Positions 30,702 through 49,956 of a DNA stretch of 64,000 nt are shown piece by piece. The notes under the pieces were generated by a model. It was not told the DNA's origin. It worked only from the letters and a program-made list of their open reading frames with translations, and made no database searches. Each line of letters starts with the position of its first letter. Position 1 is the stretch's first letter. Source of the stretch: Alloyangia pacifica (lineage in GTDB: Bacteria > Pseudomonadota > Alphaproteobacteria > Rhodobacterales > Rhodobacteraceae); the NCBI RefSeq assembly GCF_020524285.1, contig NZ_JAIVKX010000012.1:62001-126000 (forward strand), written 5' to 3'. A program made the position numbers and the translations under genes.

Positions 30702-30731
30702 CCGCCGAGGGATCGGCGGCTGTTCCATTTT

Positions 30732-32464: not shown

Positions 32465-32544
32465 ACTTTCTCCCTCGGAAAAAACCACATATTGCGGCTA
32501 TCGAGGGTAAGGTTGGCCAAAATCTGGCAAACCCAAGTTTTTTC

Positions 32545-32568
32545 CTGCAACACGAAATGCAAAGGGCT
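32545..32568 (-). repeat. Right terminal inverted repeat of the insertion sequence
   Basis: 24 bases, exact inverse of 30678-30701. Confidence 0.9.
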
Positions 32569-32590
32569 GGGCTTCGGCCCCCCTTTTTTT
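32569..32590 (+). terminator. Right half of the nqr terminator, displaced by the insertion sequence
   Basis: GGGC TTCG GCCC stem continuing CCC and T7. Its first 13 bases are the right copy of the target duplication. The end of the inserted element (AAAGGGCT) can pair with CCCTTT across a 2-base bulge, so a working hairpin may have been rebuilt here. The left half remains at 30662-30677. Confidence 0.7.
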
Positions 32591-32613
32591 GTGGTCCACC
32601 GGGTCGAGGGCGT

Positions 32614-32621
32614 GAAGGAAG
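32614..32621. repeat. Left 8-bp target duplication of the IS66-type transposon
   Basis: GAAGGAAG, immediately outside the GTAAGCGTT end. The same octamer stands at 49462-49469 directly outside the other end. IS66-family elements make 8-bp duplications. Confidence 0.88.
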
Positions 32622-32644
32622 GTAAGCGTTGCATCTGACCCCCT
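32622..32644 (+). repeat. Left terminal inverted repeat of the IS66-type transposon
   Basis: Begins GTAAGCGTT. Its inverted partner is 49439-49461, with 17 of 23 positions matching. Confidence 0.85.
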
Positions 32645-32711
32645 GATTGCCCTCTAAACCTGACCACCTCTCGTCCGCTAGTCTGCATCCGAACTACGAT
32701 CGGAGGCGACT

Positions 32712-33116
32712 ATGGCGGAACGTGAAGTCTGGGGGTTCAAGATCCGGACCTCCCCGTCGGGCAAGAGGATTTGGCCGAGCGAGCTCAAACGCGAGGCGAC
32801 AAGGCGCCTTCGGGAAGATGGCGTGTCGCCCGGAGATGTCGCCGCCGAGCTGGATGCCCATGAATGCCTGGTTAGAAAATGGTGGGTCGCTGATAGGCGA
32901 GAGCGAGGCGAAAAGATCTCCGTCGATGGGCCAGCCTTTGCACAGGTATCAGTCGAACCGGCCTTCGCTCCGGCAGCCATCCAAACACCCGCTGCAGGTA
33001 TTGGCTCAGCAAGCTCCGCTCATCTGTACATGGGCGGGATTTGCCTCCAGTTTCCGTTGTCCATTGACGAAGCAGACCTTCTGAAGCTGATCCGTGTTGC
33101 GGGGCAGTCTCAGTGA
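32712..33116 (+). CDS. tnpA: IS66 TnpA (OrfA)
   Basis: A 134-residue protein. The N-terminal half is a transposase-8-like helix-turn-helix (WPSELKREATRRLREDGVSPGDVAAELDAHECLVRKWW). The C-terminal half (LYMGGICLQFPLSIDEADLLKLIRV) is the conserved tail of IS66 OrfA. It is needed with TnpB and TnpC for IS66 transposition and probably binds the element's ends. GGAGG at 32702-32706 marks the start. It begins 90 bases inside the left terminal repeat and overlaps tnpB by 4 bases (GTGA). It looks intact. Confidence 0.92.
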   Translation: MAEREVWGFKIRTSPSGKRIWPSELKREATRRLREDGVSPGDVAAELDAHECLVRKWWVADRRERGEKISVDGPAFAQVSVEPAFAPAAIQTPAAGIGSASSAHLYMGGICLQFPLSIDEADLLKLIRVAGQSQ

Positions 33117-33487
33117 TCTCGCCGTCCAGCAGCTATCGTATCTATCTGGCCACTCAACCTGTCGACTTCCGGAAGGGGATGGATGGCTTGGCCAATTACG
33201 TCATGACCAATTTCGAACTCGATCCCTTCTCCGGTGCGTTCTTCGTCTTCCGCTCTAAGGGACGCGACAAGATCAAGGTTCTGATGTGGGACGGCACTGG
33301 CCTCGTGCTGATCTACAAGCGTATCGAAGGCGCGGGCTTCGTTTGGCCCAAACTTTCCGACGGGACGATAACCCTGACGAAGGCACAGTTTGAAGCTCTC
33401 TTTGAAGGGATCGACTGGCGTCGCGTCGTCTCGGCCGCCTATCACCACCCTTCCATTTTCAACAAAACAACCGCGGAGGTCGAGTGA
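33113..33487 (+). CDS. tnpB: IS66 TnpB (OrfB)
   Basis: A 124-residue protein of the IS66 Orf2 family. Its hallmark blocks are YLATQPVDFRKGMDGLANYV, GAFFVFRSKGRDKIKVLMWDGTGLVLIYKRIEGAGFVWP and ITLTKAQFEALFEGIDWRR. The function in IS66 transposition is essential but not biochemically clear. It starts with GTG overlapping the tnpA stop. In standard IS66 elements tnpC follows directly. Here the next gene is an AAA+ ATPase starting one base after the stop, and tnpC lies 9.6 kb further on. Confidence 0.95.
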   Translation: MISPSSSYRIYLATQPVDFRKGMDGLANYVMTNFELDPFSGAFFVFRSKGRDKIKVLMWDGTGLVLIYKRIEGAGFVWPKLSDGTITLTKAQFEALFEGIDWRRVVSAAYHHPSIFNKTTAEVE

Positions 33488-33488
33488 G

Positions 33489-34577
33489 ATGGCGACGATC
33501 CCATTCATTCAGTGCAAGATCTTTCCCGTCGAGCAGACCGCGGACTACCTCGAAAAGCGCTTCATCAAGCACCTACGGCTATTGCGAAGTGGCCTGGTCG
33601 GCCAGCCGGCGCATGAAGTCGAACTGCTTGGAGTCGACAATCAGGAACTGCATGAGGTGAGGATAACCCATCTCGAGAAGAGCAGGATCCAAAAACGCGT
33701 CAAGAAGCTTATTTCACGGCGCCAGGAAGCGTCAGGGATGGGCCATTTGCAGAGGGATGAGCGCGAGCGATTGACCGCCTTGGCAGGCGGCGTTCGGCTT
33801 GCGACGTTGAAGACCGAACACCAAGCGGATGAAATCGCGGCGGCACTTCACGATGAAATGCCCTGGATGGGGCCCGCGACCGAACAGGTCTGGAAGGCCA
33901 TGCGCAGGTCGGTGAGAGAAGGCTCCATCGGTCTTCGCCTGCCGCCCATCCTGCTCGATGGCCCTCCCGGGATCGGCAAGAGCTTTTGGGCGCGGCGCCT
34001 TGGTCGCCTCTTGACCGTACCCACGACCGTTATCGAGGCAACGAATGAAAATGCTTCATTCGGTGTCGTCGGATCCCAGCGTGGATGGGGAAGCGCCGGC
34101 CCCGGGCGTCTCATTTCCACGATCCTTATGGAACATGTCGGCAATCCGGTCATGGTCGTCGATGAGGTCGAGAAGTCTGGGACTGCGACCTCCATGTCAG
34201 GCCGCGCATTCGGACTGTCGGAGGCGCTGCTACCCCTGTTGGAGCCCTTGACCGCACGAAGCTGGAGTTGCCCATTCTATCAGGTCAAGTTCGACATGAG
34301 CTGGGTCATCTGGGTCCTGACATCCAACAACTACCACGCGTTGCCCGAGCCGCTTCTGAGCAGATGCCCACCGATATCCCTACGAGCGTTAACGACTGAC
34401 GAACTGGTCATGTTCATCTGGCGCGAAGGGCGCAGGCAGGGCACCAGCGACGTGGCCTTGGACGCTGCGGTCGAAGCTTTCAAGCGTGCGGGCCAGGCAA
34501 GCCAACCGAGTCTGAGAACTGCGGCACGGGTGTTGCAGAGGGCAGCTGATCTCGAATGTCACCCCACGTTGCATTGA
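33489..34577 (+). CDS. AAA+ ATPase coupled to tnpB
   Basis: A 362-residue protein. The first 145 residues are helical and charged (EVRITHLEKSRIQKRVKKLISRRQEA). A single AAA+ domain follows: Walker A GPPGIGKS at residues 158-165, Walker B VMVVDEVEKS with D225 and E226, a sensor 1-like VLTSNNY, an arginine-containing LLSRCPP and a small C-terminal lid. It is closest in style to Lon/ClpX-type ATPases but has no protease domain. The start at 33489 has GGAGG at 33475-33479 and lies one base past the tnpB stop, so it is translated with the transposition genes. It may be cargo or a regulator of transposition, as AAA+ proteins are in Tn7/Mu-like elements; that second idea is speculation. Confidence 0.85.
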   Translation: MATIPFIQCKIFPVEQTADYLEKRFIKHLRLLRSGLVGQPAHEVELLGVDNQELHEVRITHLEKSRIQKRVKKLISRRQEASGMGHLQRDERERLTALAGGVRLATLKTEHQADEIAAALHDEMPWMGPATEQVWKAMRRSVREGSIGLRLPPILLDGPPGIGKSFWARRLGRLLTVPTTVIEATNENASFGVVGSQRGWGSAGPGRLISTILMEHVGNPVMVVDEVEKSGTATSMSGRAFGLSEALLPLLEPLTARSWSCPFYQVKFDMSWVIWVLTSNNYHALPEPLLSRCPPISLRALTTDELVMFIWREGRRQGTSDVALDAAVEAFKRAGQASQPSLRTAARVLQRAADLECHPTLH

Positions 34578-34616
34578 ACCGATTTCACGCGCTCATCACA
34601 CCAGGGAGGCGGCTTC

Positions 34617-34874
34617 GTGACTGAATTCGAGATCATCTTCGTCGTGTTTGGTATCGGCGCATGCATCGTTGGCGCCATCCATGTCACCATCGCCTACCGC
34701 TCTTCGATACGAGATGACGAACCAGATCCGGAACGTGTTCGGCGATTTGTGGAACGGGGAATGGAGCTGCGGCGGCAGGCCCTGGAAAAATCGCGCGCCA
34801 CCGACAGGCCGAGCGACGACATCACTGAGCCAGTGTCTGCAGATCTTCCCACGCGGCAAGCGGATACTGATTGA
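34617..34874 (+). CDS. Small single-helix membrane protein, hypothetical
   Basis: An 85-residue protein starting with GTG 34617 behind AGGGAGG (34603-34609). The N-terminus is a membrane helix (FEIIFVVFGIGACIVGAIHVTIAY). The rest is a charged cytoplasmic-type tail (DEPDPERVRRFVERGMELRRQALEKSRATDR). It follows the AAA+ gene by 39 bases and is probably in the same transcript. Its last 53 bases overlap the convergent ygjP-like gene. No family recognised. The good ribosome-binding site and clear topology support a real gene. Confidence 0.6.
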   Translation: MTEFEIIFVVFGIGACIVGAIHVTIAYRSSIRDDEPDPERVRRFVERGMELRRQALEKSRATDRPSDDITEPVSADLPTRQADTD

Positions 34875-35562
34875 GCTCGTCGCGTATGCTGCGCCACTTC
34901 GGCATATTGTCGTCAAGGACCTTGATGAAACGCTCATCATGGCGCGGCGATATCAGGTGGGCGAGCTCATGCAGCAGTACGTACTCAATCGCCCGAACGG
35001 GTTTCTTGGCGAGCTCGAGATTAAGCCAGACGATTTTCTTGTCCGGATTGCAGCTGCCCCATTTCGTTTTCATTGGTCGGATGCCCCAGGTTTCGGTTGC
35101 AACGCCTAAGTGCGATGACCAATGCTCGAGCCGTGGAGCCACGTGCTCCCTTAGGCGAGCCTTGTACCAATTCTCCAGCCATCGCCTGCGTACTGCAGGC
35201 GTTGTGTCTGCCGGCACCGAATAGCGGAGCCGGTCACTGCCGATGAGTTCGATCCGGTGGACCTTCTTATCCCAATGGATCACATCCAGTCGAAGAGGCC
35301 GGCCGAAAACGAAGTGTGTTTCGCCGGAGACGTACTTCCGTTGCGTCTGGCGCTCCTGAGCGAGGAAACGGGCCTGCTTGCGGCGAACCCAATCCATCCT
35401 CGAGAGTACAGCCAGCTTGACCGCATCGAGACTGACGCTCAGCGGGGCCGCAACTCTGACCTGGCCGTCAGGCGGATAGACACCGACATGGAGGTTCTTG
35501 ATCGCCTTCCAGCGGACCTCGACCGGCGTTCCTCCGATGATGTGGTGTTCAGTATTCACCAT
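34822..35562 (-). CDS. YgjP-like M48-type metallopeptidase of the type I R-M operon
   Basis: A 246-residue protein of the YgjP/DUF45 family. The zinc motif is VLLHELAHLISPRHDERF, preceded by the family's MKTKWGSCNPDKKIVWLNLELAKKP. Such genes are often found directly behind hsdR in type I restriction operons, but their job there is not established; one possibility is proteolytic control of a restriction subunit. It starts inside the end of hsdR (14-base overlap), which indicates tight coupling. It converges with the small membrane protein gene. Confidence 0.9.
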   Translation of the reverse strand: MVNTEHHIIGGTPVEVRWKAIKNLHVGVYPPDGQVRVAAPLSVSLDAVKLAVLSRMDWVRRKQARFLAQERQTQRKYVSGETHFVFGRPLRLDVIHWDKKVHRIELIGSDRLRYSVPADTTPAVRRRWLENWYKARLREHVAPRLEHWSSHLGVATETWGIRPMKTKWGSCNPDKKIVWLNLELAKKPVRAIEYVLLHELAHLISPRHDERFIKVLDDNMPKWRSIRDELNQYPLAAWEDLQTLAQ

Positions 35563-38500
35563 GGTTCTTCAGTATCTGCAGTAGCGTATCCACAGTGTCG
35601 GGATCCGAAATCTCAGCTTCCAGGCAGCGTCTGACTTTCTTTTCTTTCATCGTATGACCGCGCCACCCGTGGGGGGCGGTCGCCCGTACAGCCTGGTCGA
35701 CCCGGCGCGCTAGGGCCTCATCTTGTCCCAGGTTGTCGAACAACGCCTTCTGCCCGGGCGATTTCATGCTCTCAGGATAGGTATTGCCATGCCCGGATTT
35801 CGCGGCCCTTACCAGCTCCGCGATCTTCTCCAAATACTCGGCGTACTCGATCGCGCCGCTCCGGCGCTGCGCCACCAAGTCAGTCAGCAGCTCCGACATC
35901 TTCTCGTAGAACTTAGGGTTCACGGGTGTCTCGTCGATGATCAGCTTCCTGACGTTGTTCTCGATCGCCTCGGCAACATTCTCACGCTTCCCCTTGGACG
36001 GCGCCGGAAGATCATCCTCGGCTTTGGCCCCTTTGCTCTCGACCAGATCAATCAGGCTGATGTCATCCAGGTGAGAGATGACCTGAGAGTCGTCGGCCCT
36101 GATGTAATTGTCGATCAGGTGGCGCATGGCCGGCTCGTAGAGCTTCATGTCAACGGCATCGCCGCTGTGGAGCCGCACGGCATCACGGATGCCGATGGCA
36201 TGCTCGACCTCCTTGCGCATTTCCGCCAGCTCCAGCTCGTTGAAGTCCGATCCGTCCGGTTCGGCGGCGACGTTCGTGTAGGCACGCGCATAGCGCCCCG
36301 CCAACTTGTAGAGCGCTTGGCGGCGGCGAGCTTTCTCTTCCGCGTCCGGATCGCTTTCGATGCCTTCGGGACTGGAGAAATACGCGAAGAGCTCTTCATC
36401 GCCCTTGGGCTGCTCGACCGCGTCGAGAAGCCCCAGCCAAGCATCGCGCGCCGTCCGCAGATCCGTATCGGCCTGCTCGGCACGATCCGTGATCAGGCCC
36501 TCGACATCCTCCTTATCGAAGGCATCGAACGCCTCGGACGTATAGTCATCCACCGCGCTCTCGATGTTCCGGAACAGATCCTTGTAGTCGACGATATAGC
36601 CGAAATCCTTATCGTCGCCGTCCAGACGGTTCACCCGGCAGATCGCCTGAAACAGCCCATGATCCCGCATCTGTTTGTCGATGTAGATATAGGTCGCCGT
36701 CGGCGCGTCAAAGCCGGTCAACAGCCGGCTCACCACGATCAGCAGCTTCATCCGCCCCGGCTCTTTCTTGAACAGCCGTAGCGCCTCCTCCTCGTACTCT
36801 TCCTCCGACGTATCGCCGAGGAGATCGGTATAAACACGGTGGACGCGCTGCTTCTCAGTCTCGCCCATGCCGGTTTCTTCACCGGTGATTTCCGGTGCCG
36901 CGCGTTTGTAGGAGGTGACGATCGCGCACTTGTCGGCCAAGATTGATCCGGACTTCCGGAATATCTCGAAGAGCTCGCATGCCTCGGGGATGGAGCCTGC
37001 AACGAGCATGGCGTTCCCCATGCCCGCGTTCAGGCGCGGCTTCATCTCCATATCCAGAATGATATCGTTGGCGATCTGCTCCAGCCGGTCACGGCTCGAC
37101 AGCACACGTTGAAGTGTACCCCATCGTTGCTTGAGCGTCGCCTTTGCGATCGGGGTCAGCCCCTTCGTCTTGGCTTCGAACCAGGCGTCGATCTTGTCCG
37201 GCGCGCTGATCCTCTGGTCGATGTCGCGGGCCTCATAGCGCAGGTCCAGCACCACGCCGTCCTCGACCGCCTCGTCAAATCGATAAGGCTTGCCGATGTA
37301 GGGGCCGAAGGTTTCGAGCGAAGTCCCCTTGTCGGACCGCAGCAGGGGCGTGCCGGTAAAGCCGATGAACATGGCCTTGGGCAGCACCTTGCGCATCGCC
37401 TTGGCCAGCTTGCCGGACTGGGTGCGGTGTGCCTCGTCGATGAAGACGAAGAACTCGCCCTTGGGTGCGCCGATGTTGGCGTTCTGGATATCGGAGATCA
37501 GGCTTTCAAGCTCCCCCTCTTCCTTCTTTCCGAACTTGTGGACGAGGGAGCAGATGATCCGATCCGTCGGATCGGCGAGTGCGGCCATCAGGTCGTTGCC
37601 CGATCGCGCGCGCCGCACCTTGTCGCCGGTATTGCCGAATACGTCCTCGATCTGGCTGTCCAGCTCCTTGCGGTCGGTGACCACCAGGATGCGGCCGTCC
37701 GGGAACGCCTCCCGAATCCAGCGCGCCAGCATCACCATGATCAGGCTCTTGCCCGAGCCCTGGGTCTGCCAGATGATACCGCCCTCGCGCGCTGCCACGC
37801 GTTCCTGCGCGGCCTTCACGGCGAAGTACTGGTTGGGGCGGGCGATCTTCTTGATGCCCGCGTCGAACAGGGTGAAGTCGTGGATCAGCTCCAGGAACCG
37901 CGTCGGCGCCATCATCTGGGTCACATCGCGGTCAAGCCGGGCCGAGATCTTGCTCTCTTCCTTCCAGGCCAGCCAATAGGGCTGCGGCGTCTGGATCGGG
38001 GCGTAGCGCAGGCCCTCGCTGTCATTGCCCGCAAAGTTGATCTGCACCGTGGTGAAGAAATGGCGGATGAACTCGGGCCGTTGATTATCGAGCGTCTGGC
38101 GGATGCCGGTCCCCACGCCCACGGTGGACTTCTTCAGCTCCACCACGCCAAGCGCGATCCCGTTGACATAGAGCACCAGATCGGGCCGCTTGTTCCAGGC
38201 CTTGGCGTCCTTGCCCTTGATCGAGACCTCTTCAGCCACGCCGAGGTCGTTGGTGCCCGCATTGCCCCAGTCGACAAAGCGCACGGTGACGGGGGCCTCG
38301 CCCGGGCCAGGGGCGATGGCCACGCCGTAGCGGAGCATGTCGTAGAAACTCTGGTTGGCCTCGTAGAGCTTGGTGCCTTCCATCCGCGCCTCTCGTTCAA
38401 GGCGGGTGATGGCCTGGGTAATGACCTCAGGCGCATAGCCCCGCGCCTCCAGCCAGGGGCGTAGCAGCGAGGGCTCGATATTGGCGTTGCCCTCGCGCTT

Positions 38501-38617
38501 TTGCCAGTCGCCGAGGTAGTGCCATCCGAGGCCCCCGGGGGTGCCGGATTTGTCCCCGCAGAGCAGGTCGATGACCCGGTTCTGGGCCTTGCGTTCCGCC
38601 TCGCCGATCTTGCTCAT
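35549..38617 (-). CDS. hsdR: Type I restriction enzyme R subunit
   Basis: A 1,022-residue motor and nuclease subunit. The N-terminal nuclease domain has the PD-(D/E)xK pattern (KRPDLVLYVNGIALGVVELKK). An SF2 helicase follows with IIWQTQGSGKSLIMVMLARW, FVFIDEAHRTQSGKLAKAM, FIGFTGTPLL and the C-terminal motor motif SRLLTGFDAPTATYIYIDKQMRDHGLFQAICRVNR. It translocates and cuts DNA lacking the host methylation pattern when bound to HsdM and HsdS. All motifs look intact. The operon order on this strand is hsdM, hsdS, hsdR, ygjP. Confidence 0.97.
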   Translation of the reverse strand: MSKIGEAERKAQNRVIDLLCGDKSGTPGGLGWHYLGDWQKREGNANIEPSLLRPWLEARGYAPEVITQAITRLEREARMEGTKLYEANQSFYDMLRYGVAIAPGPGEAPVTVRFVDWGNAGTNDLGVAEEVSIKGKDAKAWNKRPDLVLYVNGIALGVVELKKSTVGVGTGIRQTLDNQRPEFIRHFFTTVQINFAGNDSEGLRYAPIQTPQPYWLAWKEESKISARLDRDVTQMMAPTRFLELIHDFTLFDAGIKKIARPNQYFAVKAAQERVAAREGGIIWQTQGSGKSLIMVMLARWIREAFPDGRILVVTDRKELDSQIEDVFGNTGDKVRRARSGNDLMAALADPTDRIICSLVHKFGKKEEGELESLISDIQNANIGAPKGEFFVFIDEAHRTQSGKLAKAMRKVLPKAMFIGFTGTPLLRSDKGTSLETFGPYIGKPYRFDEAVEDGVVLDLRYEARDIDQRISAPDKIDAWFEAKTKGLTPIAKATLKQRWGTLQRVLSSRDRLEQIANDIILDMEMKPRLNAGMGNAMLVAGSIPEACELFEIFRKSGSILADKCAIVTSYKRAAPEITGEETGMGETEKQRVHRVYTDLLGDTSEEEYEEEALRLFKKEPGRMKLLIVVSRLLTGFDAPTATYIYIDKQMRDHGLFQAICRVNRLDGDDKDFGYIVDYKDLFRNIESAVDDYTSEAFDAFDKEDVEGLITDRAEQADTDLRTARDAWLGLLDAVEQPKGDEELFAYFSSPEGIESDPDAEEKARRRQALYKLAGRYARAYTNVAAEPDGSDFNELELAEMRKEVEHAIGIRDAVRLHSGDAVDMKLYEPAMRHLIDNYIRADDSQVISHLDDISLIDLVESKGAKAEDDLPAPSKGKRENVAEAIENNVRKLIIDETPVNPKFYEKMSELLTDLVAQRRSGAIEYAEYLEKIAELVRAAKSGHGNTYPESMKSPGQKALFDNLGQDEALARRVDQAVRATAPHGWRGHTMKEKKVRRCLEAEISDPDTVDTLLQILKNHGEY

Positions 38618-38659
38618 GGGGACCTCTCCGTTCTGGAAAATACTCGTTCAAATAAGGTG

Positions 38660-39787
38660 TCAGACCAGCCTGATCCGTCCGGTCAAAAGGTTCTGCATCA
38701 TGCCATCCTTCACCTGTCGCGCCTTTTCGAGACGGGCGTCGAGGGCTTGGATTTCGGCGTCCATGTCTTTCAGTGTCGCTGAGATCGCAATCTGTTCGTC
38801 TGGACTGGGCACGAACACATCGATGTTCTCGATAGTCTTGGCATTCAAGCTCGGAACTCCGGACGCTTCATTGTAAGACTGCCAATCAATCCTCTGGAAA
38901 ACATAGAATATAAACCGCGGATCGTTCGGCGGCTGGATATCGGTGTAGAACAACGTGTCTACGGTCCAGAACGGCGACTCGACGAATTGCGGGCGGTCAA
39001 TTGTTCCCTTTCGTCCAATGAGAACTGAGGGCTTGTCCCAGAGATAGCTGTTGGCTGTGCCGATCTGACCGCCGGTCGCCAGAATGGGGTATTGACCTGA
39101 AACGACCTCAACTTGCTTTTGGGAACGCCCATGTCGGACGGTGAGGAGCATCCCGAGCTTGCGCTCCACCCACTCCCCAGAGAACCCTGGAAGGCGGCGC
39201 TTGGCGGTCAGGAGGTCCTGCATCGCGCCCTGCTTGATGAGCCGCTTCTTGGCGATCAGCCGCTCCAGCCCCTCGATCAGCGCATCCGCATCCGAAAGCG
39301 CCGACCCGATACGCGTTTGCTCTTCTGCCTCATCCGGAACGGCCAGCTCGCACTTCTCAAACACCGAGTTCAAAAGGTGGGTCTGGTTCACGCCATCATT
39401 GAAGGCCAGAAAGTAGGGGTTCCGGTTTAGCACGTGGAAGAGCATCTTCGGGTCAGCTCCTGGGCGGGGCCGCAGGATGCAAACCCGTTGGTTCACTGCA
39501 TAAAGCTCGTCTTGTTCAACCAAGTAACACTTAGCCAGCGCACGACCATTGGGTAGATCGCTCATCACCAATAGAACGTCGTCTCTTCGCGCCGGAGTGA
39601 TATTCTGGTTGCAGGTCTTTGCGACTTCGCCCTCGGTGGAAATGAACTTCGAATTTACACAGATAAATTCGCCAAGCGGATCTATGAAAGGCTCGTGGGC
39701 TTTTCCTGGGATAAACTGGCACAGGTCAAACAGGCGCCTTTTTGACCAACCATTGGGTAGGTTCGTGGCCGCAGCAGAGGAGTTCAT
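38660..39787 (-). CDS. hsdS: Type I restriction enzyme specificity subunit
   Basis: A 375-residue DNA-recognition subunit with two target recognition domains. The first spans about residues 10-160. It is followed by the central coiled-coil spacer (EEQTRIGSALSDADALIEGLERLIAKKRLIKQGAMQDLLTAKRRL). The second runs to about residue 330, then the C-terminal coiled coil (DEQIAISATLKDMDAEIQALDARLEKARQVKDGMMQNLLTGRIRL). This repeat symmetry is standard for HsdS. The sequence recognised cannot be predicted. The start overlaps the hsdM stop by 4 bases. No truncation seen. Confidence 0.95.
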   Translation of the reverse strand: MNSSAAATNLPNGWSKRRLFDLCQFIPGKAHEPFIDPLGEFICVNSKFISTEGEVAKTCNQNITPARRDDVLLVMSDLPNGRALAKCYLVEQDELYAVNQRVCILRPRPGADPKMLFHVLNRNPYFLAFNDGVNQTHLLNSVFEKCELAVPDEAEEQTRIGSALSDADALIEGLERLIAKKRLIKQGAMQDLLTAKRRLPGFSGEWVERKLGMLLTVRHGRSQKQVEVVSGQYPILATGGQIGTANSYLWDKPSVLIGRKGTIDRPQFVESPFWTVDTLFYTDIQPPNDPRFIFYVFQRIDWQSYNEASGVPSLNAKTIENIDVFVPSPDEQIAISATLKDMDAEIQALDARLEKARQVKDGMMQNLLTGRIRLV

Positions 39788-42222: not shown

Positions 42223-42426
42223 CGTGTTCTGCCCTTCGCCAGTCGCCCGCGTTCTCTTCGCGCGAGTTGATTTCAGGTCTAGCGCCTCCTGGCCGCGAGG
42301 AACAGATACACCTTGCCTGATCAAGTCGAGCCAAGACCTTGAAACTGCCGACCCTGAATGGGCTACAGGCCGGCAACGTCAAAAAAGGTGCAGAAGAAAT
42401 TGACGCCAAGCAGGCGTCCGCAAGAC

Positions 42427-42550
42427 TTGCGAAAAAAGGAATTAAGGCCTTGCGAAAAATAACTCCATTCTCGAGCGAAGCGCTTATAAATAACCAGCTT
42501 CAGCCGGGATGACAGCTTGCGAAAAAATCGATATTGCCTCTGCGAAAAAT
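42427..42550. promoter_or_regulatory. Four TTGCGAAAAA boxes in two pairs upstream of hsdM
   Basis: Copies start at 42427, 42450, 42517 and 42540 (the last begins CTGCG). The two members of each pair are 23 bases apart and the pairs are 90 bases apart. All are in the same orientation. They lie in the 444-base region between the divergent hsdM start and the small HTH gene, so they are candidate operators. No gene is seen in this region, which is AT-richer than its surroundings. Confidence 0.6.
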
Positions 42551-42666
42551 TCCGATTAGGAGATTAGTGGCGGCGTTTCAAAAACAGCCGTCAATGCCCC
42601 ATGTCAACTTCACTGTTGATCTTCACCATTCAGTGCATCATTTCTTTCTTAAAGTGATTCGCAAAG

Positions 42667-42921
42667 GTGAAGGGCGATCCATTGGATTTGGTCATAGATA
42701 GAGAAAGACATGCTCGGATCCGATACGAGCTTTCCCTGCGCGGCCTGACCTTTGCGGAGATCGCGAGACGCGCTGAGGTTAGCGTTTCTTCCGTCAGTGC
42801 GGTTTCACTTGGAAAAAGCAGATCCTCGCGCATAGAGCTGATCTTGGCGCAGGCATTGGCTACTCGCCCGGAAGCGCTTTTCCCGGACCGCTACCCTGCC
42901 AACAGCGGAGAAGGCACATGA
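42667..42921 (+). CDS. Ner/Nlp-like small DNA-binding protein
   Basis: An 84-residue protein. DLVIDRERHARIRYELSLRGLTFAEIARRAEVSVSSVSAVSLGKSRSSRIELILAQALATRPEALFPDRY fits the helix-turn-helix of the Nlp/Ner family (phage Mu Ner-like regulators), with FAEIARRAEVSVSSVSAVSLG as the HTH. The start is uncertain: GTG 42667, or TTG 42682 with a better-placed AAGGG. It is divergent from hsdM and probably controls the restriction operon through the nearby TTGCGAAAAA boxes, acting like a C-protein. A hairpin at 42950-42981 may terminate it. Confidence 0.75.
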   Translation: MKGDPLDLVIDRERHARIRYELSLRGLTFAEIARRAEVSVSSVSAVSLGKSRSSRIELILAQALATRPEALFPDRYPANSGEGT

Positions 42922-42949
42922 GCTAGAAACCAAGGGCTCTGGAAGAGTT

Positions 42950-42981
42950 GAGGCCCCGGGACTGGTAATCCCTAGGGCCTC
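42950..42981 (+). terminator. Possible terminator after the Ner-like gene
   Basis: GAGGCCC-C-GGGA pairs with TCCC-TA-GGGCCTC around a 7-base loop. There is no strong T run, so function is uncertain. Confidence 0.45.
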
Positions 42982-43040
42982 GGAAAATCGCTCGGCGCGA
43001 CACCTCATCTATTCCCGACACGCACGAAGAAGTCAAGCCT

Positions 43041-43064
43041 CATGCCCGTCACCCCACGGGCATG
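43041..43064. other. Short perfect hairpin before tnpC
   Basis: CATGCCCGT (43041-43049), 6-base loop, ACGGGCATG (43056-43064), about 60 bases before the tnpC start. It could be a leftover terminator or a control element limiting transposase expression. Confidence 0.45.
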
Positions 43065-43125
43065 TACACTCGGGTCTTGCTTGCGGTTTTGAGCCAAGAC
43101 CTTGTTTGGCCACTGGGATGATGGG

Positions 43126-44842
43126 ATGGATACTATACAAGCGGCCTGCGCCCAACTCGCAGTCCACCAGGACAGGTATGTTCAAGAGCTCTCGGAAGTG
43201 ATTGAGCGGGCGGATCGTCAGCGCGACAACGAATACGACCAATTGAGAGCAAGGCTTTCCAAGGCAACGTCGGAGATCAAGACATTGCGCTCGGAGCTCA
43301 AGCGCACAAGGAGCCAAGTCGAAGATCTGACCACCCAAGTGGCGGATGAAGCGGCGCGCACTGTAGAATTGCTGCATGAACAGTACAGCCCAAAATCTGA
43401 ATCGACGAAAGCAAAAAGACGTCAAGGAGTTATGCGCACTGACGGCCAGAGCGAGGGAGGCAATCCTTCTTTTTCGGGGCAAATCAAGAAGTTTTCAGTC
43501 GCTCCGCCGCCCAGGCCACGTAACAGAAACGGCCGTGGCGCGAAAAATTGGGAAGGCCTGGAACGCATTGAAATTCCGATGGATTTCCCGAAAACGTGCC
43601 CCTGCCCCTGCCCCTGCGGCTGCGGCGGCACAATTAGAAGTTTTTATCCAGATGAGAAGCGGGAGGTAATTCCCGCAAAGTTTTATATCGTAGTACGCAG
43701 GTATCTTCGCTATCGCTGCCGAAAAGACGACGTCACCGTCGGCACTCTGTACAAGCCTACGCTAATGCCTGGAGTGACCAGCGGATCAAGCATGCTGGCA
43801 TACTTGGTGACCATGCGCTACGGGTGGGGGATGCCCATGTATCGGATTGAAAACATGCTCAATCATAGTGGCACCACCTATCATCGCGCGACCATGTGCA
43901 AGCAGATCGGCCGACTTGCCGCCGAGCTTGGGCACGTAACATCTGAACTACAACGCCACACTCTGGATGATGCTTCCCGCATCTTCTTCGATGAGACGGT
44001 GTTGAAAATACTGCGCCCGGGTGAAGGAAAGACTGGGCAATCCTATATGTATGCGGCTCATCGCGACGATAGCTCATTTGGCGGCAATGCCCCGCGTTCA
44101 ACGGTTTTCTTCCATCGAACCTCTCGGTCGATGGCGCATATACACGGGATCCTTGGTGGCAAGTCGTTGATCGTACAGCACGACGGCTATGCGGGTTATG
44201 GTCGCCTGGGCCAGCCCGGCAGTGATGTCGAGAACATTGTGTCGGTTGAATGTTGGGTGCATGCCCGGCGCAACTTCATTAAGGCAGCGCAAACAATGGA
44301 ATCGAACCTGCCAAATGAAGTCGTGGAAATGATGGCAGAGCTTTTTGATGTTGAAAGCATTCTTCGTGGCCAGACACCGGCTGCGAGACTAACATACCGA
44401 AATGAACGATCCCAGGCAGTCGTTCAGAAGCTTCATTCGAGATTGAGGGGCATGTCTTCTCGCACGTTGCAAAAAGACAGGCTTGGCAAGGCCATTAATT
44501 ATACGCTTGAGCGATGGGATTCTCTGACGCTTTTCCTGAGAGACGGACGAATAGATCTCGATACAAATCCAGTTGAACGTCAGTTCAAACCGATTATCCT
44601 GCAGCGCAAGGGCAGTCTCTTCATCGGCAGTGAAGAGGGGGGGGCATACGTGGGCTGCGATGTCCTCATTGGTTGAAACTTGCAAGCTGAACCGAGTGGA
44701 CACGTACCGCTATTTTTCCTGGATGATTGACGATCTCGCGGAGATGAGAACGAACAACCTTGACGAGGATATCGATTACAGTCGGTATTTGCCGTGGAAT
44801 GCGCCAGTACACTGCAAGGTGAAGCTGCCGCCCGTGAAGTAG
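43126..44842 (+). pseudogene. tnpC: IS66 TnpC transposase, frameshifted in a G8 tract
   Basis: The DDE transposase of IS66. An N-terminal coiled coil (about residues 15-90) precedes a Cys-rich zinc-binding block (CPCPCPCGCGGTIRSF). The catalytic core has IFFDETVLKILRPGEGK, LIVQHDGYAGYG and DLDTNPVERQFKPIILQRKGSLFIGS. The reading frame is lost at a run of eight G (44637-44644) and runs out at 44676. With seven G it would continue GSEEGGHTWAAMSSLVETCKLN, the standard IS66 C-terminal domain, to the stop at 44842 (571 residues in all). So a single extra base separates this from a normal gene. It could be a mutation, polymerase slippage that restores some full-length product, or a sequencing error. 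Confidence 0.9.
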
Positions 44843-45151
44843 TGCGGTGAAATGACGTTCGTTTCCATGAGCCCGAATGCTTGCAATTTTCCGGATGTTC
44901 GAGATTGAGGAGCCCCCCCGAGCCACGTATCAGGAAAGACTGCTCGACATGGAGTAGGTTTTCCACCTAAAACCAGATAAGTTCACGAATTCGCTCTCGC
45001 TTGCCTGCGGCGCGTTCGCTGTAGAGAATGTGCCTGTGGGGCCGAGGTGTGAGGGGCTGAGCCAGATGAACAAGGCCCTTGAGGCAGACGGCTCCGACAA
45101 GATGTCTGTTTCCGACGAACCGGAAGCCGGGGGGTATCTCCAACGGCGATT
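44843..45151. other. Intergenic stretch between tnpC and the nuclease gene
   Basis: About 309 bases with no convincing gene. It holds a 29-codon ORF (45066-45155) of no recognised type. No GTAAGCG-type IS66 end is present here, so tnpC is not the edge of a separate IS66 copy. The promoter of the nuclease-helicase pair should lie here. Confidence 0.5.
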
Positions 45152-45964
45152 TTGACGGCTGCGTGCAAAGTCAACGAGCACTGTGTCGGCGATCACTGGA
45201 CTGTCGGTGATTTCGATTCACTGGCCCGGCTCATAGCGATCATCGCTATGGGACAGGCGAAGCACGCGGCGCGGATTATCACTGACCTGCAGCCAGCGGT
45301 CCCGGCATTGACGATCGACGCGCTCCGTGCCGATGCGAAACAGCGTCTGACCGTGACTGGAGACACGCCAGAAAAGCAGGACGCTCATCGATGGCATCGG
45401 GACGGTCTGATCTTCGAGGCGATCTTTTGGATCGTCGCCCGACAGGGTGCTGCCGCCAACGTTCTCATGAAAGACCCGCACATCAGTGCGACGACACAGG
45501 GCCTTGATGGGCTTATTATCGAACTGGACGAAAAGGGTGAAACGGTCGTCCGTGTGACAATTCTCGAAGACAAGTGTTCGAACGACCCACGGAGAAAATT
45601 CAGAGACGAAGTTCTGCCTGCCTTCCGAAACTATCATGTCGGCAAAAGGGCTTCGGAGCTGGTGGCGGCAACATCCTCGTTACTTGACGGTAAGATTCCC
45701 GACGAAGCGGTCATGGAGGCTGCGGGGCGCGTTCTTGATATGGAATTCAGGGCCTACCGTGCCGGATTGACAATCAATTCTGAACACGATTCGGAGGCGG
45801 GACGCACAGCGTTGTTCAAGGGATATGAGCGTCTTGAAATGATCACCGGAGCTCAGCGCATCGGAGCAACATTTCTGCCGCCTTCAGAGCTGCGCACTTG
45901 GTTTGACGAAATTGCCGGTCAGGCGATCGCCTTCATCGACGAGCTCGGGAAGGAAGATCACTAA
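45152..45964 (+). CDS. Putative PD-(D/E)xK nuclease of a nuclease-helicase defence pair
   Basis: A 270-residue protein with TTQGLDGLIIELDEKGETVVRVTILEDKCSN in the middle. The Asp at residue 119, about 20 residues before an E139-D-K141 pair on a beta strand, is the pattern of a PD-(D/E)xK nuclease core. HRDGLIFEAIFWIVARQ before it fits the helix that usually carries an extra catalytic Glu. The stop overlaps the start of a large SF2 helicase (TAATG). A small nuclease coupled to a large helicase is the layout of Hachiman (HamA-HamB, DUF1837) and AbpAB anti-phage systems, and this is probably a relative. The start is uncertain: TTG 45152 or TTG 45080. The family was not confirmed by a search. Confidence 0.65.
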   Translation: MTAACKVNEHCVGDHWTVGDFDSLARLIAIIAMGQAKHAARIITDLQPAVPALTIDALRADAKQRLTVTGDTPEKQDAHRWHRDGLIFEAIFWIVARQGAAANVLMKDPHISATTQGLDGLIIELDEKGETVVRVTILEDKCSNDPRRKFRDEVLPAFRNYHVGKRASELVAATSSLLDGKIPDEAVMEAAGRVLDMEFRAYRAGLTINSEHDSEAGRTALFKGYERLEMITGAQRIGATFLPPSELRTWFDEIAGQAIAFIDELGKEDH

Positions 45965-48900
45965 TGTTCGACCCGGTGACCGCGGAGATCATACGTACCG
46001 CGCCAGCCTTGCCAGGCCTGAATCCCGCCGATCTGCCGCAGTTACTTACAGCGCAGTATGCAGAGCTGTCTGCTCGCAGAATGAGACGTGTAGAAGGCGC
46101 TGAAGATGCGATGGGTGACGGCGCCTCTGACGTCGAGTGGCCTCTCGCCCGTATTGCCGACGCATACGAGATCGTTGTGTCCGTCCGGCGCGACGCTGAC
46201 TACCGCCGGGCAGCCGCATTCGTTGCCGGTACAGCACATCAAATTCTGGCGCAGGACCTCGAGCAGAACGATGCAACCCGGCCTTTTGCCATCATGGATC
46301 GGGATAGCATACATCCAGCGATTGCGGCGGCGGTGCTTTTCTTGGTGGCCGAGCAGTACGCGGACGCCCAAGAAGCCGCGCGCTTCATCCGGCCGGAAGA
46401 TGGAGAGCAGGACTATGTCTGCACAATTTTGGCCGAAGATATCCGTGACTTGGCGCGCGGTAGTTTCCAGAGCATTCTTGAACGCGCGCAACGCCGTCCG
46501 GCAGGGTTCTTCATCGGTGGAGCGCTTGAACAGCGGGGAACAACGGCGCTCTTCGAGAGCCTCGTCGTCGGTGTCGAGTTGTTTGCAGCGGAAGTGCTGG
46601 CAACAGACGTGCCTGAGAAGGCGGCAGGGCGGTTCGACGGCGCAAGGGCGGCGTTCGCCCGCGTGTTGGCCCTTTCTTCGTTAGAGCACGGTCGCCTCGG
46701 CGATTTGTCCCAGAATTTTCAGACTAACTACCCGGGACCGCGTCACCTCGCGTCACTGCTGCTCGCAGCCTATGATACCATTGTGGACGCGGCGGTTACA
46801 CGCCTGCAACCGCCTGATGGTTCAGATGGGGACTACTGGCGAAGCTGGCTGAGGCATCGTGCGAATGCCGCACCTTTTGTCTGGCCAAATCATAGGGAAG
46901 CCATAGCGAAAGGCTTCCATGAAAGCGGCAATTCCGCCGTGCTAATTCTGCCGACCGGCGCGGGAAAAACGACGGTCTCTTGCCTGAAGATTGCTGCTGT
47001 GCTCGCAAGCGGCAAGTCGGTTGTGTTCGTCGCTCCAACTCATGCACTCGTGGATCAGCTCACCGACGATCTGCAGAAGGTCTTCCCGGAATCGCTGGAA
47101 GGTTCTGTTGTATCGAGCGATTTCGACCGCTTGTTCGCCTCCGGCACCAACTTCGAAAGCATCGAAGTCATGACGCCGGAGCGCTGTCTTGCGCTTCTGT
47201 CATACTCGCCAGAGGCTTTTGATAACGTGGGGCTGCTGGTCTTTGATGAATGTCATCTCCTCAGCCCCGTATCGAGTCTCCGCCGAGCGCTGGACGGAAT
47301 GTTCTGCGTCCTTGCCTTCAACAGCATCGCACCGGAAGCCGACTTCCTTTTTCTTTCTGCGATGCTTGAAAATGGCGCTGCATTCGCGGAGTGGATTGAA
47401 GAGCTTACCGGTCGAACCTGTGTTTTTGTCGATCCGCTTTGGAAGCCGAGCCGACAAGCGCGTGGCGTCCTGCTATATGAGAGTGCCGCCATCGCTCAGA
47501 TGAAACGTAACGCGATTGCCGTTCAGCGCGCGGAGGATGTCCGAAAGAAGAAGCGCGCAAAGAACCTGCGCAAACCGGCCGCTGAGGCGCTACAATGTCC
47601 GCCGCATGCTCTCTTTGGACTTCAGCACAACTGGCTGGCTGGCGCAGCGCCAAGCTGCACTCTGACGGCCATATCCGATGCGCCGGTCACGTTAACCGGT
47701 AAGCTCAACAGGGATGGTTCGATCTATCTGACCCCTAATGTAAATAAGGTGGCAGCGCAGGTTGCGGCGGCTGCTGCTCGCAACGGCGTGAAAGGTATCG
47801 TCTTCGTCAACCGCAAGGATACTGCCGCGTCTACTGCTCGTGAAATCTCGGCGCTTTTGGGTGACCCGCCAGAGCAAACGCAAGATGAAGAAGAAAGATG
47901 GAAGGCGCTGGAGATTGAGCTCGGCGGTCTGGAACACGCAATCTTGCGCGGGCCCGCCGCTGCTGTGCCCCACAATGCGCTGATGCTCAGGCAGGAGCGC
48001 GATCTGGCAGAACGCTTGTTCCGCCGTGCCGACGGGGCAAAAGTCATCGTCGCCACACCGACGCTGGCGCAGGGGCTCAACCTTCCGGCTCATATTGCCA
48101 TTCTTGCCGGGGACAAGCGTAGCGACCCGGATGAAGGAGGGCGCGAGGACCTGGAGGCGCATGAGATACTGAATGCAGCGGCCCGTGCAGGGCGTGCCGG
48201 TCACCTCGCCAACGGCATCGTACTGCTGATCCCTGAAGCTGTGCTTCAATTCAGGCGCGGCAGCCCCTTCGTTCCAGGAGTGCTCGACAAACTGAAGTCA
48301 GTACTGCCTGAGGACGACCGCTGCCTGTCCCTGAGCGATCCCCTGCAGACAATTCTTGATCGCATTAATGTGGCGCCTGCTGCCGACCCCGATGTCGAGT
48401 ATGCCCTGAACCGCTTGGCTACTGCGGTCTCGCCTGATGGCGCAGAAACCGAAGCAACAACGCGTTTCTCGATAGGACGGTCACTGGCGGCCTTCACGGC
48501 CAAGAGAAGCAATAAGAAAGCTGAGTTCGATGCGAAAGTCGCGAAACTGAACGAGCTTATTGGCGAGAGAGCGAAGGAGGCCAACGATCAGGTCCTAGCG
48601 GAGCTTGCCACTCAGAGCGGCGCGCCGCTTGGCATACTCAAATCGCTCCGGCAAAGGATCGAGGATCAGATTGAACAGCTACCCCAGACAATACTCGACT
48701 GGACGTCCTGGATCATCAAATGGCTCGCAGAGGATCAGGATGCGCGCGATGCTCTTCTGATCCGTGATGGTAGAGCAATTCTCGGGGCTACCGGAAACAA
48801 GAAGGACGGACCGCTCACGGCCGATGCCGTGAGAAACCTCGAACCCGGGATTCTGGCTTGGTTACGCGGCGAACCTTTGCGCGAAATAGAAAGACAACTC

Positions 48901-49266
48901 GGCGGCGACCCCGCTGAAAAGGCAGTTTGCCCGCGCGCCCGTGAGCTAGTCTCTCAGCTAGTGCCGCTCAGCCTTTCATTCGCTGCCGGTCTGGTCGCGC
49001 GCACGGCAAGCGAGATACCTGCCATCGCAGATGGAACGGCTACGCCGGTCTCTGTCATTGACTGCCTTGCAGCCGGTGTCAGGCGCGGCTTCGACACTCC
49101 GAACAAGCTCGCCTTTAGCGACATCATGCGCGGTTTCCTGAGTCGCGTTCAGACACATCAGTCCTATTTCGCTACTATCGAGCATGAGCCAGAGATCTCA
49201 AACGTGGAAGAGTATCCGGCGGTTGTGGACCGAATGCGGGTGTATCTGCTGCTAGTCGGCGACTGA
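45964..49266 (+). CDS. Large SF2 helicase of the nuclease-helicase defence pair
   Basis: An 1,100-residue protein. The first 310 residues are a helical region of no recognised fold. The helicase core then shows LILPTGAGKT (residues 327-336), FVAPTHALVDQL, VMTPERC, LLVFDECH (DECH 428-431), FLFLSAM, IVFVNRKDTA, VIVATPTLAQGLNLPAH and ILNAAARAGRAG, a Ski2-like SF2 order. A long helical C-terminus of about 350 residues follows. It is translationally coupled to the nuclease. By analogy with Hachiman HamB it would sense or travel on phage-modified or damaged DNA and release the nuclease. The catalytic motifs look complete. The defence role is inferred from architecture and the neighbouring restriction system. 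Confidence 0.75.
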   Translation: MFDPVTAEIIRTAPALPGLNPADLPQLLTAQYAELSARRMRRVEGAEDAMGDGASDVEWPLARIADAYEIVVSVRRDADYRRAAAFVAGTAHQILAQDLEQNDATRPFAIMDRDSIHPAIAAAVLFLVAEQYADAQEAARFIRPEDGEQDYVCTILAEDIRDLARGSFQSILERAQRRPAGFFIGGALEQRGTTALFESLVVGVELFAAEVLATDVPEKAAGRFDGARAAFARVLALSSLEHGRLGDLSQNFQTNYPGPRHLASLLLAAYDTIVDAAVTRLQPPDGSDGDYWRSWLRHRANAAPFVWPNHREAIAKGFHESGNSAVLILPTGAGKTTVSCLKIAAVLASGKSVVFVAPTHALVDQLTDDLQKVFPESLEGSVVSSDFDRLFASGTNFESIEVMTPERCLALLSYSPEAFDNVGLLVFDECHLLSPVSSLRRALDGMFCVLAFNSIAPEADFLFLSAMLENGAAFAEWIEELTGRTCVFVDPLWKPSRQARGVLLYESAAIAQMKRNAIAVQRAEDVRKKKRAKNLRKPAAEALQCPPHALFGLQHNWLAGAAPSCTLTAISDAPVTLTGKLNRDGSIYLTPNVNKVAAQVAAAAARNGVKGIVFVNRKDTAASTAREISALLGDPPEQTQDEEERWKALEIELGGLEHAILRGPAAAVPHNALMLRQERDLAERLFRRADGAKVIVATPTLAQGLNLPAHIAILAGDKRSDPDEGGREDLEAHEILNAAARAGRAGHLANGIVLLIPEAVLQFRRGSPFVPGVLDKLKSVLPEDDRCLSLSDPLQTILDRINVAPAADPDVEYALNRLATAVSPDGAETEATTRFSIGRSLAAFTAKRSNKKAEFDAKVAKLNELIGERAKEANDQVLAELATQSGAPLGILKSLRQRIEDQIEQLPQTILDWTSWIIKWLAEDQDARDALLIRDGRAILGATGNKKDGPLTADAVRNLEPGILAWLRGEPLREIERQLGGDPAEKAVCPRARELVSQLVPLSLSFAAGLVARTASEIPAIADGTATPVSVIDCLAAGVRRGFDTPNKLAFSDIMRGFLSRVQTHQSYFATIEHEPEISNVEEYPAVVDRMRVYLLLVGD

Positions 49267-49344
49267 GAGCGTACCAAGCTAGTTCGCAGGCATTCCAGTT
49301 GCCGTGTGATCGATCTCACTAGTAAAGCCCTCTGTTCGCTCGAG

Positions 49345-49403
49345 CGGTTGTAAAGGGACGATCACAACCGATTTTCGCGCTCCCGTATTGGCGTACGCCA
49401 ATA
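49345..49403. other. Two dyads just inside the right transposon end
   Basis: CGGTTGT (49345-49351) and ACAACCG (49364-49370) form a stem followed by ATTTT, possibly the helicase-gene terminator. Then comes an 18-base perfect palindrome TATTGGCGTACGCCAATA (49386-49403), ending 58 bases before the transposon end. The palindrome could be a subterminal protein-binding site. Confidence 0.55.
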
Positions 49404-49438
49404 TAGGGTGCCGAAGGGAAGCGGGGAATAGATCCTTT

Positions 49439-49461
49439 AGGGGGCTCTTTGTAACGCTTAC
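49439..49461 (-). repeat. Right terminal inverted repeat of the IS66-type transposon
   Basis: Ends AACGCTTAC. Read on the minus strand it begins GTAAGCGTT and shares CCCCCT with the left repeat. Confidence 0.85.
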
Positions 49462-49469
49462 GAAGGAAG
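49462..49469. repeat. Right 8-bp target duplication of the IS66-type transposon
   Basis: GAAGGAAG, identical to 32614-32621. Confidence 0.88.
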
Positions 49470-49526
49470 CGCCCGGGGGAGGCGAAGTCCCCAGAGGCGA
49501 GGCGCCGTGACCTCGCGGCGCGGAAA

Positions 49527-49910
49527 TCAGATCTCGTAAAGCTCCAGCGGCAGCCCGTCGGGATCGGCGAAGAAGGTGAAGCGTTTGCCGGTCAGCGGGT
49601 CGATCCGCACCGGCTCGACCTCGACGCCTGCAGCCTCGAGCCAGAGCACAGCCTCGGCCATGTCGGCGACGCGAAAGGCGAGATGCCGCAGCCCCTTCGC
49701 CTCGGGGCGCGAAGGCCGCTCGGGCGGGTCGGGGAAACTGAAAAGCTCCAGCTGCCCGCCTCCGGGCACGGCAAGATCGAGCTTCCAGCTGTCGCGTTCG
49801 GCGCGGTGGGTCTCGGCAATCACCTCCAGCCCGAGCAGATCGACGTAGAAGGCACGGCTGCGGGCGTAATCGCCGCAGATCAGCGCCACGTGATGCAGGC
49901 CCTGGAGCAT
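49527..49910 (-). CDS. VOC-family (glyoxalase-like) protein
   Basis: A 127-residue vicinal oxygen chelate protein with the paired beta-alpha-beta-beta-beta fold: LHHVALICGDYARSRAFYVDLLGLEVIAE in the first half and LRHLAFRVADMAEAVLWLEAAGVEVEPV in the second. Metal-ligand candidates are the first-half His, ELFSF, the second-half His and the C-terminal LELYE. It resembles the short GloA2/YaeR group, whose reaction is often unassigned; lactoylglutathione lyase activity is only possible. It is the first host gene beyond the right end of the transposon and lies behind the NAD kinase gene on the same strand. Confidence 0.9.
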   Translation of the reverse strand: MLQGLHHVALICGDYARSRAFYVDLLGLEVIAETHRAERDSWKLDLAVPGGGQLELFSFPDPPERPSRPEAKGLRHLAFRVADMAEAVLWLEAAGVEVEPVRIDPLTGKRFTFFADPDGLPLELYEI

Positions 49911-49956
49911 CGGCTGTTCCTTCCTGTTGCTGCCTGTCCCGAGCCGCGGCCGGGGA

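Follow-up and report, generated by a model that had tools for sequence, protein, structure and literature searches.

A large IS66-family element with split transposition genes and putative defence cargo in Alloyangia pacifica

Introduction

Defence islands are usually carried by prophages, Tn7-like elements and conjugative elements, and Tn7-like transposons carry interchangeable defence cargo; how such islands move is largely an open question. In the IS66 family of insertion sequences (IS), TnpC does the chemistry of transposition, while TnpA and TnpB are accessory. IS66 elements with passengers have already been named tIS66 (PMC12888890); an example is ISPa75, a tIS66 of 2,996 bp whose single resistance gene is fosZ, and by the count of that paper seven of the 25 Pseudomonas IS66 members in ISfinder carry passengers. 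In the available parts of two other papers, IS66 is among several IS that flank the RptR-RMS-DarTG-M48 island of enteropathogenic Escherichia coli (EPEC; PMC12255303), and an IS66-family gene is a neighbour of the restriction-modification (RM) site R3 of D. pigrum (PMC8547433). The present study concerns a stretch of 64,000 nucleotides of Alloyangia pacifica (contig NZ_JAIVKX010000012.1, positions 62,001 to 126,000; hereafter the window), which contains an IS66-bounded element of 16,840 bp at 32622-49461. Comparison with related genomes indicates that this is very probably an IS66-family transposon with passengers, moved as one unit between its ends; putative defence genes are here surrounded by a simple three-gene IS family. 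An earlier reading of the window made from its letters alone (the original prediction) is taken up where the results bear on it.

Results

Ends, target duplication and empty site

The boundaries of the element are formed by the following features.

32614-32621, no strand: left target-site duplication, GAAGGAAG, which occurs once in the empty site of genome G301
32622-32644, plus strand: left terminal inverted repeat of IS66 type, beginning GTAAGCGTT, 17/23 against the right end
49439-49461, minus strand: right terminal inverted repeat, ending ...AACGCTTAC, 17/23 against the left end
49462-49469, no strand: right target-site duplication, GAAGGAAG, abutting the right end exactly

The ends begin with GTAA, as in the IS66 family, and the short inverted repeats agree at 17 of 23 bases, the first nine exactly. 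When the left 23-mer was compared with both strands of the window, it scored 23/23 with itself, 17/23 with the right end and above 15/23 nowhere else. The octamer GAAGGAAG occurs five times on the plus strand of the window and four times as its reverse complement, so that its presence alone is weak evidence; what matters is that it is placed exactly against both ends. In a control with 137 candidate right ends, the abutting 8-mers matched in nine cases (eight exact, one with one mismatch), found in nine of the 11 elements described below, whereas none of the 137 gave matching 8-mers 8 to 48 bases further out, whichever of six offsets was taken. The end comparison, the 23-mer scan and this control confirm the IS66-type termini and the perfect 8-bp duplication of the original prediction.

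That prediction had also foreseen an empty site, with the flanks joined by a single GAAGGAAG. Among 20 genomes of the same genus, own genome included, it was found in one, G301, in which both flanks match side by side and read straight through one GAAGGAAG; the flanks are continuous, with no partial stage of the cargo. In the 18 other genomes the left-flank query had no match, so that they have no bearing on the empty site. Between nqrF and the element, the nqrF terminator contains a separate IS of 1.9 kb (window 30677-32569), whose perfect 25-bp inverted repeats read CAGCCCTTTGCATTTCGTGTTGCAG; by eye, this IS has possible transposase open reading frames (ORFs) in two frames of the minus strand, 30732-31811 and 31310-32488. 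This IS is absent in G301, and because of it nqrF is farther from the element site in the window than in G301.

Transposition genes

Inside the ends, the genes related to transposition are located as follows.

32712-33116, plus strand: tnpA, 134 amino acids, HTH_Tnp_1 at 0.0058, below the Pfam cut-off
33113-33487, plus strand: tnpB, TnpB_IS66 at 3.8e-37
42667-42921, plus strand: HTH_35 gene just upstream of tnpC, PF13693 at 1.7e-10
43126-44676, plus strand: tnpC, IS66 DDE transposase, DDE_Tnp_IS66 at 9.6e-77, C-terminal part out of frame

The element thus holds TnpA (weak in Pfam), TnpB and a DDE TnpC, in agreement with the prediction of one IS66 set, and all passengers lie inside one pair of ends, as in tIS66. 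The tnpA gene overlaps tnpB by four bases and is 96% identical in the element of Chachezhania and 92% in that of genome G502, both described below. Three columns, D, D and E, which we take to be the catalytic triad, are invariant in an alignment of six TnpC of the same split type. The usual IS66 order, in which tnpC directly follows tnpB, is not present, as 9.6 kb lie between the two genes, and the element is therefore classed as a variant and not as a canonical IS66.

As the cargo lies between IS66 genes, it might have been moved as a composite transposon by two flanking IS66 copies, but the element has one tnpA, tnpB and tnpC set and one pair of ends, and no second tnpB or tnpC match exists in window 31001-51000. 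In the whole genome, tnpAB DNA occurs once and TnpC is matched once at E<=1e-120, hence there is no flanking IS pair. With one copy found in place of two flanking IS, the composite transposon was dropped as extremely improbable. The single pair of ends, the single tnp set and the empty site support the single IS66-bounded unit that had been proposed; the single tnpAB copy suggests rare or conservative movement.

Cargo and close relatives

The cargo falls into two slots, the first between tnpB and the HTH_35 gene.

33489-34577, plus strand: AAA+ ATPase with a Lon-like AAA domain, PF00004 at 5.9e-9
34617-34874, plus strand: small ORF with a hydrophobic N-terminus (by eye), no NCBIfam match
34822-35562, minus strand: YgjP-like metallopeptidase adjoining hsdR, PF01863 at 2.1e-55, missing from the gene list of the original prediction
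35549-38617, minus strand: hsdR, TIGR00348 at 1.1e-147, PADLOC REase_I at 1233.7 bits
38660-39787, minus strand: hsdS, PF01420 at 2.2e-21
39784-42324, minus strand: hsdM, N6_Mtase at 4.3e-97

The second slot, between tnpC and the right end, holds two genes.

45152-45964, plus strand: nuclease-like partner gene with an ExK-type motif (by eye only), homologues on 11 plasmids
45964-49266, plus strand: superfamily 2 (SF2) helicase, HamB-like (DEAD helicase in Pfam), PADLOC HamB at 3.3e-30

HsdR, HsdS and HsdM were recognised from matches in Pfam, PADLOC and NCBIfam, so that a type I RM system is present. The AAA gene, which reaches 1.4e-18 against TIGR00763, far below the cut-off, starts one base after the tnpB stop, that is, in the position of tnpC in an ordinary IS66.

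In slot 2, the original prediction had seen a Hachiman/AbpAB-like nuclease-helicase pair. The helicase is HamB-like and may be a HamB: its best stretch against PADLOC HamB is the helicase core, and in the PDB it matches HamB 8vx9 at 4.2e-20, with SLH1 scoring better at 1.5e-29. The partner half is not supported, as the nuclease-like gene has no match in Pfam, PADLOC or NCBIfam, including the HamA profile, and no PDB match below E 0.9. Its single-sequence AlphaFold model, at a pLDDT of 36.8, is too poor to be of use. Among its homologues on 11 plasmids, the match touches an annotated DEAD/DEAH helicase in two.

The closest relatives are a 16,767-bp element in Chachezhania sediminis CAU 1508 (G139, taken as NZ_VOPH01000017.1) and a 16,569-bp element at another site in G502, with the duplication ATCCGGTG (8/8). 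Both share with the window the series tnpA-tnpB-AAA-small ORF-YgjP-hsdR-hsdM-HTH, and the small ORF is 94% identical in the former and 93% in the latter. The DNA of the window agrees with Chachezhania to 93.7% over 6149 bp and 88.5% over 5011 bp, and with G502 to 94.7% over 6152 bp and 91.8% over 3234 bp. The least conserved part is hsdS, which reaches at best 45% identity in tblastn, along part of the gene, and leaves a gap in the DNA match. The likeness to Chachezhania runs on through tnpC, slot 2 differs, being occupied there by Gabija (GajA 6e-260, GajB 2.2e-224), and the likeness returns in the last 106 bp (89.6%). The likeness to G502 ends between the HTH gene and tnpC; tnpC and the right end both differ, and so does slot 2, which contains another Gabija (1.4e-236 and 3.9e-238). 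The G502 TnpC, 65% identical in tblastn to that of G477, thus belongs to a TnpC group other than that of the window. A 3,808-bp form with an internal deletion and a perfect duplication, in G180, matches the G502 element at both ends. Pseudodonghicola xiamenensis has a collinear piece with tnpB, AAA, RM, HTH and tnpC, the left end lying outside the stretch and tnpC being matched to residue 479, near the contig end.

These comparisons bear on the possibility that an ordinary IS66 of about 2.5 kb came first and acquired its defence genes at this site afterwards, piece by piece, both between tnpB and tnpC and downstream of tnpC. Such a history would fit the differing slot 2 of the relatives as well as the occurrence, described below, of the AAA gene and of a related HsdR/S/M plus YgjP set (on plasmid pFER4) near Tn7-like genes. 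However, in G502 and Chachezhania the left block has kept its order and its end while sitting at different sites, each with a duplication of its own, so that the block was assembled before those insertions, and the G301 empty site has no trace of an intermediate. Piecewise insertion is unlikely on the whole, and for slot 1 the compared sequences mostly refute it.

Wider survey

Elements with the same kind of ends were searched for among 394 genomes of the family, about one per genus, with the left-end pattern at <=3 mismatches. The pattern is present in 28 genomes, the reversed-pattern control columns being 0 in the rows; 27 of these were examined (G565 was left out), and nine yielded an element with both ends and a duplication when left-end matches were paired. 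TnpC searches added two more, one of 15,434 bp on a plasmid of Thioclava sp. FTW29 (duplication CGTCCTTC) and one of 14,278 bp (duplication AAGCAAAC) in G020, a genome which gave no element by pairing and holds the complete one on another contig. The total is thus 11 both-ended elements, ten with duplications of 8/8 and one of 7/8. This survey bears out the expectation that such ends would recur at other loci, next to 8-bp duplications of other sequence and around cargo that may be similar or different.

Seven of the 11 share a split plan and span 11.7-16.8 kb: those of the window, Chachezhania, G502, G477 (14,296 bp), G530 (11,715 bp), Thioclava FTW29 and G020. In these, tnpA-tnpB lies at one end and HTH_35 with tnpC 5.8-9.8 kb away, with cargo between and usually also beyond. 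The split form occurs in six genera by genome tags (G000, G139, G502, G477, G530 and G020) and on the Thioclava plasmid. Two elements are of the tIS type with cargo after tnpC (G450, 6,630 bp; G339, 5,289 bp, cargo without clear assignment), and two, in G180 and G555, lack tnpC; that of G555 (L161 1582-3467) measures 1,886 bp and has IS66-type ends, a perfect AGTCTGCG duplication and no tnp match. The G477 element interrupts a transposase gene of the IS3 family. An intact copy of that gene, from Paracoccus sp. AK26, can be aligned to the joined flanks with no gap, which would make it, in substance, a second empty-site equivalent.

The putative defence role of the cargo is assigned by profile. 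Type I RM is found in the elements of the window, Chachezhania, G502 and Thioclava, the last of which also carries MerR, a heavy-metal P-type ATPase and a multicopper oxidase. G477 has a type ISP RM protein of 1715 amino acids with OLD-like and CoiA_N genes, and G020 has SIR2 and a short prokaryotic Argonaute (pAgo) of SPARSA type (3.9e-219 and 1.3e-211), together with two further ORFs of 699 and 427 amino acids that have no PADLOC or Pfam match. G530, with an OLD/AriA-like gene and SWIM_XIII and DUF6493 genes, is the weakest case for defence. The non-split G450 carries an RT-Toprim retron-type protein (2.7e-209). Incomplete pieces add a HamB-like helicase behind tnpC in G503 (1.5e-31), the order HsdR, N-6 methylase, HTH_35 and tnpC, matching that of the window, on plasmid SC52, and two loci with a split-type tnpC nearby.

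L176 16585-19065 (G042): ThsA-like SIR2 protein, 3.1e-12
L166 15992-17830 (G045): DRT UG13a reverse transcriptase, 3.7e-190, with Hsd-like genes

HTH_35 was found in all seven split elements, in six by Pfam (in Thioclava over a 64-residue stretch) and in Chachezhania by tblastn (93% to the G502 gene). The original prediction had assigned a regulator to the type I RM operon; the RM genes stand, but the supposed regulator is this HTH_35 gene beside tnpC, which also occurs without a recognised RM. As HTH_35 adjoins tnpC also in three elements in which type I RM genes were not recognised (G530, G477 and G020), a role as regulator of the RM operon only is less likely.

The AAA gene was matched in five of the seven split elements. 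A role as an essential IS66 helper was rejected, because G530, Thioclava FTW29 and both tIS-type elements have no AAA match and because the gene also accompanies Tn7-like genes; judged by this distribution, it is an accessory gene. Clear TnsA/TniA/TniB/TniQ genes lie near AAA homologues in at least six of 45 AAA loci (L045, L046, L057, L064, L077 and L078), some of the 45 overlapping and the Tni queries being derived from L034, L077 and L078. This neighbourhood would fit a Tn7-like element with AAA and RM as its real core, in which IS66 was embedded by chance. However, TniA, TniB and TniQ queries in tblastn list no match in the window element, and both its ends and its 8-bp duplication are those of IS66, the duplications of Tn7-like elements being 5 bp long. 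With IS66 ends and no Tni gene matched in the element by tblastn, this reading was dropped as very improbable.

Apart from this question, one AAA gene family is common to two kinds of transposon, being found near TnsA/TniA/TniB/TniQ genes in L077 10196-25302, L078, L046, L057 and L064. On plasmid pFER4 of P. ferrooxidans, a related HsdR/S/M plus YgjP set lies near Tn7-like genes, partly broken by other IS (HsdR 83%, YgjP 62%, HsdM fragment 76%). On plasmids of P. yeei and K. vulgare (L033 17970-18557; L034 17992-18558), a DUF6634 gene, not recognisable as tnpA, occupies the tnpA position with a 4-base overlap with tnpB, and is followed by metallophosphoesterase, AAA, DUF6634 and metallophosphoesterase genes.

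The split kind looks uncommon: at E<=1e-120, TnpC was matched in at least four of 190 genomes of the class, own genome included, and at E<=1e-150 in at least 12 of the 394 family genomes, with up to seven candidates scored per genome in the former search and up to three in the latter. The three other class genomes gave four matches, of which that of G677 and one of two in G764 are canonical copies; the G753 match was left out of the element check. In a TnpB tree (14 rows), the window groups with Chachezhania, G502 and G180, many forks being weak, and in a TnpC tree (13 rows) the split TnpC fall into two groups, one of them joined to the non-split G450 and G339; G020 and the broken TnpC of G502 are not in the trees. 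Exchange between the tnpAB part and the tnpC part is in keeping with the trees and the identities, although the rows are few and the TnpB forks weak.

Discussion

Read from the aligned sequences, insertion is precise, with an 8-bp duplication and with the cargo moving along with the ends, and the slots, as well as the half from tnpC to the right end, are exchanged between elements. In the proposed mechanism, TnpC, helped by TnpA and TnpB, would recognise the GTAAGCG ends, move everything between them and leave the 8-bp duplication. As the transposition genes are split, with tnpA-tnpB at the left end and HTH_35 plus tnpC about 9.6 kb inside, two cargo slots would result: slot 1 with the AAA gene, the small ORF, the YgjP peptidase and the type I RM operon, and slot 2, from tnpC to the right end, with the nuclease-helicase pair in the window and Gabija in two relatives. 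HTH_35, a domain type known for Mu Ner, may be the regulator of tnpC, which it would hold down. To judge from their absence or exchange in relatives, the passengers would be dispensable for transposition; the set of proteins required, and cut-and-paste as against replicative movement, are matters of inference.

Several observations weigh against the reading as one IS66-family transposon moved as a unit. The window tnpC has a frameshift after a run of eight G (44637-44644), and that of G502 is stopped by TAA (L178, about 11580). Thus, of the seven split copies, two look damaged in tnpC and five have it open; in Chachezhania it is intact, with 567 amino acids and no G8 run at that place. Unless the G8 run contains a sequencing error, the window copy may be non-autonomous through this frameshift. 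The Chachezhania duplication, AACGATAC/AACGATGC, agrees at only 7/8. In G304, among the 18 genomes without a left-flank match, nqrF and the VOC gene are adjacent without the element, and the intervening stretch differs and has no GAAGGAAG. A second comparison of the G477 flanks (Thioclava, L194) aligned only with several gaps, no empty site was found for the Thioclava FTW29 element among the collected plasmids, or for that of G530 when the only other genome of that genus was searched, and the other genomes with left ends gave contig ends, remnants or unfound ends. Finally, the nuclease-helicase pair was seen in none of the other elements. The claim of the original prediction that the whole unit transposed in one step is therefore well supported for the left approximately 10 kb and for tnpC with the right end, but not for the slot of this pair, which may have entered later between an existing tnpC and right end.

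Beyond the single element, the large split IS66 transposons of Rhodobacteraceae probably, though with a good deal less assurance than the unit itself, represent a distinct plan, namely a dedicated modular anti-phage carrier with a fixed tnpA-tnpB end (often with the shared AAA gene), an HTH_35-tnpC middle with a Ner-like regulator, a tnpC exchangeable together with the right end, and two slots swapped between genera. Type I RM, type ISP RM, Gabija and SPARSA genes all lie inside exact IS66 ends with duplications, and the split-transposase relatives with different cargo suggest a recurring and little-described way of moving defence systems. With defined ends and a transposase set split in two, these elements are testable units, and they contain natural swaps of the specificity subunit, of the second defence system and of the transposase between elements whose DNA is about 88-95% identical elsewhere.

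Comparison with known systems

The nuclease-like gene followed by a HamB-like helicase resembles the HamA-HamB arrangement of Hachiman; it differs in that the first gene matches no HamA profile. Tn7-like transposons have the AAA gene in common with the present elements, and a related RM-YgjP set is shared in a single instance, but they have a TnsA/TniA/TniB/TniQ transposase set and other ends. The EPEC island and D. pigrum R3 also have IS66-family genes beside RM or defence genes (PMC12255303, PMC8547433), and the EPEC island likewise pairs RM with a metallopeptidase (PMC12255303), but the available parts of these papers describe no single IS66 unit with ends and a duplication.

Five canonical IS66 copies, detected by scripts similar to those of the element search (P. 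alcaliphilus, 2526 bp; Pontiella, 2333; G494, 2467; G677, 2553; G764, 2494), share GTAAGCG ends (GTATGCG in Pontiella), 8-bp duplications, TnpB and a DDE TnpC with the split elements. They differ in that no cargo was seen and that about 80-164 bp separate tnpB from tnpC in four of them. A sixth control, from Rhizobium, has 3906 bp with extra genes.

The original prediction had held passengers between IS66 ends to be an undescribed element type, which is not borne out, as tIS66 is in print (PMC12888890). In the search listings and excerpts of open-licence PMC text, which exclude subscription journals and ISfinder, no IS66 element of such size, split plan and defence cargo was seen, and none is presented there as a single unit enclosing a defence island. 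As far as the excerpts on tIS66 and ISPa75 go, the likeness comprises IS66 ends, one tnpA-tnpB-DDE transposase set and a passenger between tnpC and the right end, a plan that G450 (6.6 kb) and G339 (5.3 kb) follow. Compared with ISPa75 as given there (2,996 bp), the split elements are 11.7-16.8 kb long, have tnpA-tnpB 5.8-9.8 kb from tnpC and HTH_35 beside tnpC, and carry cargo, mostly of defence type, on one or both sides of tnpC. Thus, the element of the window is a very large tIS66, of a known kind, in which the size, the split plan and the defence cargo are the new variation.

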